DNA of 43,665 nucleotides from Gemmatimonadetes bacterium bin94 (GTDB lineage: Bacteria > Gemmatimonadota > Gemmatimonadetes > Longimicrobiales > Gaopeijiaceae). Both the position numbers and the translations under genes were made by a program. Under the pieces are notes generated by a model. It was not told the origin of the DNA and made no database searches. It saw nothing but the letters and a program-made list of their open reading frames with translations. This document shows, piece after piece, positions 2,076 to 3,843 of the stretch. The stretch lies in the NCBI GenBank assembly GCA_002238865.1, contig MPNE01000035.1, positions 1-43,665 of the forward strand. The letters are read 5' to 3'. Numbering within the stretch: the first letter of the stretch is position 1; every line of letters begins with the position of its first letter.

Positions 2076-2108
2076 TGGCTGTCCCCCGGTGGTAGTTGAG
2101 TACTACCG

Positions 2109-2146
2109 AAAAATAAGGGCCGGCGTCCACGAAGGAACGCCGGCCC
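2109..2146 (-). terminator. Intrinsic terminator of the small RNA
   Basis: On the minus strand a perfect 10-bp stem (GGGCCGGCGT with ACGCCGGCCC, plus-strand arms 2117-2126 and 2137-2146) with a 10-nt loop is followed directly by TTATTTTT. This is a textbook Rho-independent terminator. It closes the candidate small RNA and would also insulate the PTPS unit from fumC read-through. Confidence 0.8.
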
Positions 2147-2297
2147 CTATGTGCCGGAGGGTGTTACCTGAAGCCCGGGCTCAACTTTTGGTGACTCCCC
2201 CGCTGCTTTCGCAGTCCCCCTTCCGGGGCGTGACGTCCACCGCGGGAGGTAGTCCCGGCTCTTCCAGTGTTGGCTCAAATACGAGCCCCCCAGCACA
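2109..2297 (-). ncRNA. Candidate structured small RNA, 6S-like (~190 nt)
   Basis: Between fumC and the PTPS gene there is no convincing reading frame, but the minus strand folds well. Its 5' end GTGCTGGGGGG (from 2296) pairs along all 11 positions, two of them G-U, with CCCTCCGGCAC (2161-2151), forming a long-range closing stem. Inside are GAAG..CCGGG paired with CCCGG..CTTC, a GGCTC/GAGCC hairpin next to the closing stem, and two hairpins with GNRA-type loops (CCCC-GGAA-GGGG and CTGC-GAAA-GCAG). An intrinsic terminator begins 4 nt after the closing stem. A σ70-type promoter places the 5' end almost exactly at the start of that stem. Size, closing stem, large internal region and 3' terminator match 6S RNA (ssrS). 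The primary sequence is not recognisable enough to be sure, and it could be another small RNA. It does not match SRP RNA or tmRNA. Confidence 0.55.
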
Positions 2298-2302
2298 GTC
2301 GG

Positions 2303-2331
2303 AATATGAAGACCGAACCCCGGAACCGCAA
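2303..2331 (-). promoter_or_regulatory. σ70-type promoter of the small RNA
   Basis: On the minus strand, TTGCGG (2331-2326) and CATATT (2308-2303) are separated by exactly 17 nt. The predicted start, near 2297, is at the base of the closing stem of the candidate RNA. The hexamers match the consensus at 3 and 4 positions. The support comes from the agreement of spacing, start point and RNA fold. Confidence 0.5.
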
Positions 2332-2373: not shown

Positions 2374-2461
2374 GGCCGTCACGAGTCTCCGGCACGGCCG
2401 TCGCGCGTCTCCGGCACAGCCGTCACGCGCTCCCAGCCCCTGCCGTCACCCGCTTCCCGGG
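2374..2461. repeat. Four decaying 22-bp tandem repeats at the fumC 3' end
   Basis: Units begin at 2374, 2396, 2418 and 2440 with the form GGCCGTCACG-AGTCTCCGGCAC. The first two differ at few positions; the third and fourth are progressively degraded. The last unit covers the fumC stop codon, so the tract has extended over the end of the gene and its trailer. No function is evident. Confidence 0.55.
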
Positions 2462-3843
2462 ACCCCCGGCTCGGTCATCTGGCGCACGTCCAGCGCGTCG
2501 TCCAGCTCGTCCGCGTCGATCAGTCCCATCTCCTCCACTACCTCCCGAACCGACCGGCCCTCGTTCGCCGCCTTCTTCGCGACGATGGTCGCCTTGTCAT
2601 AGCCGATCCGGGCGTTCAGCGCGGTGGCGATGGAAGGGTTGCGCTCCAGCAGCTCGCGGGCGCGCTCCGGCCGGGCCGTGATCCCGGCAATGCACCGATC
2701 GGCGAAAACGGTGGCCGCATTGGCCAGAAGCGTGATGGATTCCAGCAGAGCGTCGGCCATGACCGGCATCATCACGTTGAGTTCGAAGTTGCCGCGCTGG
2801 CCACCGATGGTGACGGTCGTGGCGTTCCCCATGACCCGGGCACACACCATCATGAGCGCCTCGCACATGACGGGGTTCACCTTTCCGGGCATGATCGAGC
2901 TGCCCGGCTGCACCGCCGGAAGCTGAATCTCCGAAATCCCCGACGTCGGGCCGCTCGCCAGCCAGCGCACGTCGTCGGCGATCTTCATGAGGCTGGCCGC
3001 CACGGTGTTGAGCGCGCCCGCCAGCGAGACGCACGCGTCCTTGGCGCCCTGGGCCTCGAAGTGGTCTTCCGCCTCGCGGAATTCGATGCCGTAGGTGGCC
3101 GCCACCCTCGCCATCGTCCGGCCCGCGAATTCGGGGTGGGCGTTGATCCCGGTTCCCGTGGCGGTTCCCCCCAGCGCCACCTCGGCGAGCTCTTCGCCGG
3201 CGCGCTCCACCCGCCCCATCCCCAGGGTCGCCTGGCGCGCGTAGCCCCCGAACTCCTGTCCGAGGCGGACCGGCGTCGCATCCATGAGGTGCGTGCGGCC
3301 CGACTTGACGATCCCGTCGAAGTCGCGCGCCTTTTCGGCGAGGGCATCGCGCAGATGGCCGAGGGCGGGGATCAGCTCGCCGCTGAGCGCGGCCCGGCAC
3401 GAGACGTGGATCGCGGTCGGGATGATGTCGTTCGAGGATTGGCCGTAGTTGACGTGGTCGTTCGCGTGAACATGTGCCGCGCCTGTGGCCGCTCGGTTGG
3501 CCAGCGCCGCGATCACCTCGTTCGCGTTCATGTTGGTGGACGTGCCCGATCCGGTCTGGTAGATGTCCAGCGGGAAATGGTCGTCCCACCCGCCTTCGGC
3601 GACTTCCCGCGAAGCGGCGGCGATGGCGGCCCCCCGTTCGGGCGTGAGGAGTCCCAGCTCGACGTTGGTCTCGGCGGCGGCTTCCTTCAGCCGCCCCAGC
3701 GCCTCGATGAAACGACGCCCGAAGCGCCGCCCGCTGATGGGAAAGTTCTCGACCGCGCGCTGGGTCTGAGCGCCGTAAAGGGCGTCGGCGGGCACCCGCA
3801 CCTCGCCCATGGAGTCCTTCTCGATTCGATGTGTTTTCGACAC
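2446..3843 (-). CDS. fumC: Class II fumarate hydratase
   Basis: 465 residues, full length for the heat-stable, iron-independent fumarase that interconverts fumarate and L-malate in the TCA cycle as a cytosolic homotetramer. Visible features are TGSGTSTNMNANEV near residue 97, the catalytic His185 in GRTHLMDATP, and the superfamily signature GSSIMPGKVNP at 314-324, which includes the catalytic Ser loop. The ATG start fits the N-terminal family pattern (RIEKDSMGEVRVPADALYGAQTQRA region). It is divergent from the SDR at 3932, with 88 bp between them. The C-terminal tail (EPGVPGSG) is encoded by the last unit of a 22-bp tandem repeat. Confidence 0.96.
   Translation of the reverse strand: MSKTHRIEKDSMGEVRVPADALYGAQTQRAVENFPISGRRFGRRFIEALGRLKEAAAETNVELGLLTPERGAAIAAASREVAEGGWDDHFPLDIYQTGSGTSTNMNANEVIAALANRAATGAAHVHANDHVNYGQSSNDIIPTAIHVSCRAALSGELIPALGHLRDALAEKARDFDGIVKSGRTHLMDATPVRLGQEFGGYARQATLGMGRVERAGEELAEVALGGTATGTGINAHPEFAGRTMARVAATYGIEFREAEDHFEAQGAKDACVSLAGALNTVAASLMKIADDVRWLASGPTSGISEIQLPAVQPGSSIMPGKVNPVMCEALMMVCARVMGNATTVTIGGQRGNFELNVMMPVMADALLESITLLANAATVFADRCIAGITARPERARELLERNPSIATALNARIGYDKATIVAKKAANEGRSVREVVEEMGLIDADELDDALDVRQMTEPGVPGSG

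Follow-up and report, generated by a model that had tools for sequence, protein, structure and literature searches.

What is encoded between fumC and the 6-pyruvoyl-tetrahydropterin synthase (PTPS) gene on a contig of Gemmatimonadetes bacterium bin94 (MPNE01000035.1), of which we analyzed one stretch of 43,665 nucleotides, hereafter the window? The initial annotation had placed here an unannotated, probably 6S-like RNA of about 190 nt. Upstream fumC (positions 2446 to 3843, an ORF with homologues at the corresponding place) and downstream PTPS (1659 to 2075) are both on the minus strand, and so is the RNA gene between them. The promoter, proposed earlier with no strand given, was located on the minus strand, with a -35 element TTGCGG (2326 to 2331) and a -10 element CATATT (2303 to 2308). 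Across all 20 same-genus loci (L001 to L020), TTGC(G) is kept with a 17-nt spacing and CAT(A/T)(A/T)T always stands 6 nt ahead of the closing stem, giving an identical geometry in which only the surrounding bases vary. The intrinsic terminator (2107 to 2150, minus strand) was also recovered as a GC-rich stem from 2150 to 2113 followed by TTTTT, and a terminator hairpin is located after the core in most homologues. The positions of the promoter and the terminator put the predicted 5′ end of the primary transcript near 2297 and its 3′ end near 2107 on the minus strand, in agreement with the earlier estimate of its length. Because the promoter and the terminator are both conserved and lie about 190 nt from each other, the locus is predicted to form an independent transcription unit of 6S-like length (180 to 200 nt). 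Between fumC and the 6S promoter, a GC-rich unit of about 22 bp is repeated three times head to tail (2370 to 2427). Elsewhere in the window, positions 1 to 630 are of very low complexity; one strand encodes long stretches of proline and the other stretches of glycine.

To follow this RNA across genomes, we used BLAST and two covariance models, one trained solely on close relatives of the same family (R1) and a second, broadened one whose training set covered the phylum and included no sequence from E. coli (R2). With the 281-bp region as the query, BLAST found it in 35 of 59 genomes (that of the window and its relatives), once per genome, and it was conserved in 21 of the 22 other genomes of the genus. 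The named records with the core motif were Gemmatimonadota, several of them labelled Longimicrobiales. Two pattern matches labelled "Pseudomonadales" (L042 and L050) were not R1 matches. The window genome had exactly one match, at 2296 to 2151 with R1 (152.7 bits), and the same copy was the sole R2 match in the whole genome (129.5 bits). R1 matched 276 of 298 Gemmatimonadota genomes, nearly always once each; slower or relaxed searches with R1 and R2 added nine, and the RNA is therefore present in at least 285 of the 298. A same-genus genome (G007) and a two-contig genome of the same family (G196) gave no match to R1 or R2 with filters relaxed, which may reflect an assembly gap or a real loss. 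Some genomes had two 6S-model matches each (G293, at L139 and L141, and also G044, G052, and G276), the second being possibly a 6S paralogue, a partial match, or contamination.

Folded alone, the window RNA had a z of −4.3, and none of 200 dinucleotide shuffles was as stable. Its overall shape is a rod, with a closing arm (P1 and P2), a central bubble of about 15 nt on the 5′ side and about 13 nt on the 3′ side, and an apical arm, all on the minus strand. The 11-bp closing stem described in the initial annotation was confirmed as P1, in which 2296 to 2286 pairs with 2161 to 2151, with 6 nt between the -10 element and its first base; compensatory change was found in 11 of 11 pairs, with 96% of cells paired (54 genomes). 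P2 is formed by a 5′ strand, UUUGAGCC (2272 to 2279), which adjoins the central bubble and has the motif and place of UGAGCC in E. coli 6S RNA, and a 3′ strand, GGGCUUCA (2169 to 2176), which is also complementary to GAGCC/GAAGCC of the 5′ bubble. In P2 the core pairs hardly vary and therefore show little covariation of their own. The 5′ side of the bubble, AACACUGGAAGAGCC (2257 to 2271), is unpaired in the consensus between P2 and the apical arm and aligns with the E. coli 5′ bubble, and the same consensus fold and E. coli alignment define the 3′ side, AAAAGUUGAGCCC (2177 to 2189). The apical arm (2190 to 2256) consists of P3 (GGGACU/AGUCACC), CUCCCGC/GCGGGGG, and inner helices.

Covariation was found in both arms flanking the unpaired bubble, as in the rod fold of 6S RNA. 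In an alignment of 54 diverse members that had been fitted to the structure, 35 of the 44 pairs of the rod fold were changed on both sides, against 24.8 in shuffles, and 15 of the 18 pairs in helices 3 to 5 showed compensatory change; the covariation score of the fold was 0.504, against 0.199 in shuffles and at most 0.12 for slid versions. An independent MAFFT alignment (A4) gave compensatory change in 26 of 33 RNAalifold pairs, and a family-only MAFFT alignment of 30 sequences (A1) had 19 pairs changed on both sides, where shuffles had 8.0 and none of 500 had as many. The internal GNRA-loop hairpins proposed earlier held up in part: the stem of CCCC-GGAA-GGGG is conserved and its loop is not, and CUGC-GAAA-GCAG is not conserved, with 55.6% of cells paired and no excess over shuffles. 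The window RNA could locally form a hairpin like that of the E. coli 3′ bubble (UUGAGCC/GGGCUUCA), but we did not adopt it because many homologues in the alignment could not. Conservation and covariation among relatives, which the earlier proposal had called for, were thus both found, with compensatory change above that of every shuffle, and they confirmed a real small RNA gene that extends across the phylum, far beyond chance.

Is this RNA a 6S RNA? A search with the 6S covariance model, recommended in the initial annotation, did not lend direct support: RF00013 had no 6S match to the window copy at E ≤ 10 and matched 0 of the 59 relatives in the first sample, whereas control genomes did match. 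A direct match to this model, which is a detection tool and not a biological definition, was therefore lacking for the window copy; nor did RF00013 find any other 6S RNA in the close relatives. An Rfam scan of the window and 14 homologous loci gave nothing at the gathering level. Candidates below the cut-off were ar15 (26.1 bits against 40), asX1, Pxr, and BTH_s1, none of them shared by the homologues.

The homology emerged through intermediates and through detection of a known 6S RNA. In five deep-branching loci, R1 and RF00013 matched one interval in one register. At the first of these (L100, in genome G212), the R1 match spans 1516 to 1664 (73.5 bits, E 3.4e-12) and the RF00013 match 1501 to 1680 (56.6 bits, cut-off 46.4); the R1 and RF00013 scores were 53.6 bits (2.3e-8) and 53.3 bits at L101, 47.6 and 42.3 bits at L102, 66.8 and 40.5 bits at L103, and 70.3 and 36.9 bits at L104. 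Most of these alignments have the helix UGAGCC/GGGYUUCA, or a variant of it, at the closing-arm edge of the bubble. E. coli ssrS (L134, annotated 984 to 1166) was detected by R2 at 999 to 1149 (25.3 bits, E 6.5e-4), with UGAGCC placed on UGAGCC and GGGUUCA on GGGCUUCA. R1 had no match to E. coli ssrS, and the broadened R2 was needed; some of its training members were first spotted via RF00013, and R1 independently matches every one of them. A proteobacterial-looking 6S RNA beside a ZapA gene (L099, contig C266 of G309, 1501 to 1694, 62.5 bits with RF00013) was dropped as a bridge and is probably on a contaminating contig, because R1 and R2 miss it and R2 matches a different contig of G309 with 103.8 bits.

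The gene neighborhood points in the same direction. In E. coli the gene order is zapA-ssrS-fau, and a ZapA gene (PF05164) lies directly upstream of the RNA in four deep-branching loci (L133, the G212 locus, and L101, L102, and L106); two of these also have a ZapB-like gene farther upstream, and three have RNase Y or YmdB on the downstream side. This (zapB-like)-zapA-6S-RNase Y/YmdB order looks ancestral. The zapA neighborhood is found in these deep branches and not in the window genome, where zapA is on contig C22 and the two genes are therefore separate. The 6S-like identity proposed at the outset is thus supported by the shared R1 and RF00013 matches, by the detection of E. coli ssrS with R2, and by zapA synteny. 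With gene structure, conservation, fold, and 6S homology all established in this analysis, the locus almost certainly encodes 6S RNA (SsrS), a trans-acting mimic of an open promoter that is expected to bind RNA polymerase with the housekeeping sigma factor. Polymerase binding, pRNA synthesis, and a growth-phase role of this RNA we infer from its homology to known 6S RNAs.

The same evidence bears on an alternative reading, an RNA of the Ms1 type known from Actinobacteria, whose partner is the sigma-free core RNA polymerase. The structures of Ms1 and 6S RNA are related (PMC9130861), and the form of polymerase bound cannot be read from sequence alone; yet the homology is to RF00013, 6S is the only Rfam family matched, and the zapA synteny is that of 6S, which makes this reading very unlikely.

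The proximity to PTPS raises another possibility, a cis-acting PTPS leader (riboswitch or attenuator) in which the structured RNA senses a signal and the terminator decides PTPS transcription. Most of the genus, along with several other families, has the RNA and PTPS on one strand with an intrinsic terminator between them, and full-length PTPS homologues, 62 to 83% identical, follow the RNA in most of the genus and in part of the family. The 6S gene also adjoins PTPS in other Gemmatimonadota lineages, and PF01242 adjoins the RNA in L115, L129, L132, and L110. However, PTPS is absent at L026, is about 1.3 kb from the RNA at L029, and does not adjoin it in the deep-branching L101, L102, and L106, where ZapA is upstream and RNase Y or YmdB downstream. 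Because of these missing or distant copies, we regard the linkage as a recurrent gene order that cis regulation does not require; the RNA gene is not cis-linked to its window neighbors fumC and PTPS. The leader model, which calls for an obligatory linkage, is largely refuted by this loss, and with an RNA core connected to 6S and no riboswitch family matched in the Rfam scans we rejected it as extremely improbable. A new structured RNA class, merely rod-shaped and unrelated to 6S, was the earlier fallback and could appeal to the lack of an Rfam match for the window copy, but its probability is next to nil, being contradicted by the agreement of two separately built models on intervals and register in distant members, the direct finding of E. 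coli ssrS, and the shared zapA synteny, and such an alternative is not needed.

Taking the locus as a 6S RNA gene, how might its polymerase be released? In known 6S RNAs, a central bubble is flanked by two interrupted arms, and the pRNA template starts at U44 in E. coli and C40 in B. subtilis (PMC8876501). In the R2 alignment, the counterpart of E. coli U44 is C2269, the third base past GAGCC, and 52 of 53 genomes have C or U at this position. The pRNA predicted from C2269 would begin 5′-GUUGGCUCAAAUACGAG..., reading GUUGGCUCAA... from the base opposite C2269. It would be complementary to the 5′ strand of the 6S RNA, with a full possible extent of GUUGGCUCAAAUACGAGCCCCCCAGCAC (2269 to 2296, plus strand), real pRNAs being shorter.

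In the proposed mechanism, RNA polymerase would hold the 6S bubble in its active site and be kept off DNA promoters under nutrient scarcity. When nucleotides return, the enzyme would start on the 5′ bubble at C2269 and copy the 5′ strand of P2 and P1 into the short pRNA, unwinding P2. The P2 3′ strand, once freed, could then pair with GAGCC in the distal part of the 5′ bubble (the family mostly has GAAGCC there), and this pairing would collapse the bubble and release the enzyme.

Outside the genus, most members of the window's family have GAAGCC in the distal 5′ bubble as a perfect complement of the P2 3′ strand, and within the genus the match is of 5 bp (GAGCC/GGCUU). Several other families have a complementary AAGUCC or AGGUCC nearer P2, and the complementarity is kept by compensatory changes in L100 (ACGUCC/GGGCGU) and L106 (UAGACC/GGUCUA). 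The median best duplex of bubble and P2 was −7.8 kcal/mol, against −5.4 kcal/mol for shuffled bubbles, and p was at most 0.05 in 19 of 53 genomes, whereas a control segment reached this level in 1 of 53; the signal of each single sequence is modest, with a p value of 0.15 for the window itself. This complementarity suggests a putative release by a central bubble collapse helix of the B. subtilis type, an arrangement named in B. subtilis and A. aeolicus (PMC8876501), and because the sequences are related and the window has this p value we consider the helix plausible, not proven. Somewhat short of an even call is our tentative view that Gemmatimonadota may have a distinct 6S subtype, combining a shortened GC-rich closing arm, a G-initiated pRNA, and collapse-helix release in which the bubble partner would have been re-sited at least twice around a nearly fixed P2 3′ strand. 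By re-siting we mean that in Longimicrobiales the partner is GAAGCC and lies far from P2, that several other families have AAGUCC/AGGUCC close to P2, and that an outgroup has the compensatory UAGACC/GGUCUA.

6S RNA is a global regulator of transcription. The RF00013 cut-off is passed in only 3 of the 298 genomes of the phylum, and one of these 3 is probably a contaminant, where the family model finds at least 285. RF00013 thus misses nearly the whole phylum, and Rfam-based pipelines will therefore report most Gemmatimonadota as lacking 6S RNA. In the literature that we searched, a scope outside which lies the main survey of 6S distribution (Wehner et al. 2014), no paper paired 6S RNA with Gemmatimonadetes, Gemmatimonas, or Gemmatimonadota. 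Our results close a phylum-level annotation gap with a divergent member of a known, important RNA family, and the alignment is a ready extension of that family that links 6S genes of the zapA type to relocated ones. They also yield a specific pRNA prediction that can be put to the test, and they allow the two known release mechanisms to be compared.

Among known systems, Ms1 of Actinobacteria resembles the present RNA in its general rod with a bubble, and in being an RNA polymerase-binding RNA missed by Rfam models in distant relatives (PMC9130861). It differs in synteny (HAD hydrolase), whereas the Gemmatimonadota relatives match only 6S among Rfam families. B. subtilis 6S-1 and A. aeolicus 6S RNA (PMC8876501) are alike in the complementarity of the P2 3′ strand to the distal 5′ bubble, and the predicted pRNA template start is a C, as is C40 of B. 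subtilis 6S-1. The collapse helix is a prediction here, and, in contrast to these RNAs, the closing arm and bubble in Gemmatimonadota are of the proteobacterial-like UGAGCC type. Compared with RF00013, which represents the alpha/gamma-proteobacterial type of E. coli ssrS, the Gemmatimonadota closing arm is shorter and GC-rich, the core model has 147 to 148 positions against 187, and the window copy is under any RF00013 reporting level. Its gene lies between fumC and PTPS, not beside zapA as in E. coli, and the E. coli 3′-bubble hairpin, possible in the window RNA, is not conserved. At the same time, the two share a rod of closing arm, central bubble, and apical arm, a length of about 190 nt, the UGAGCC/GG(Y)UUCA helix beside the bubble, common covariance-model matches, and, in the deep-branching Gemmatimonadota members, a gene downstream of zapA.
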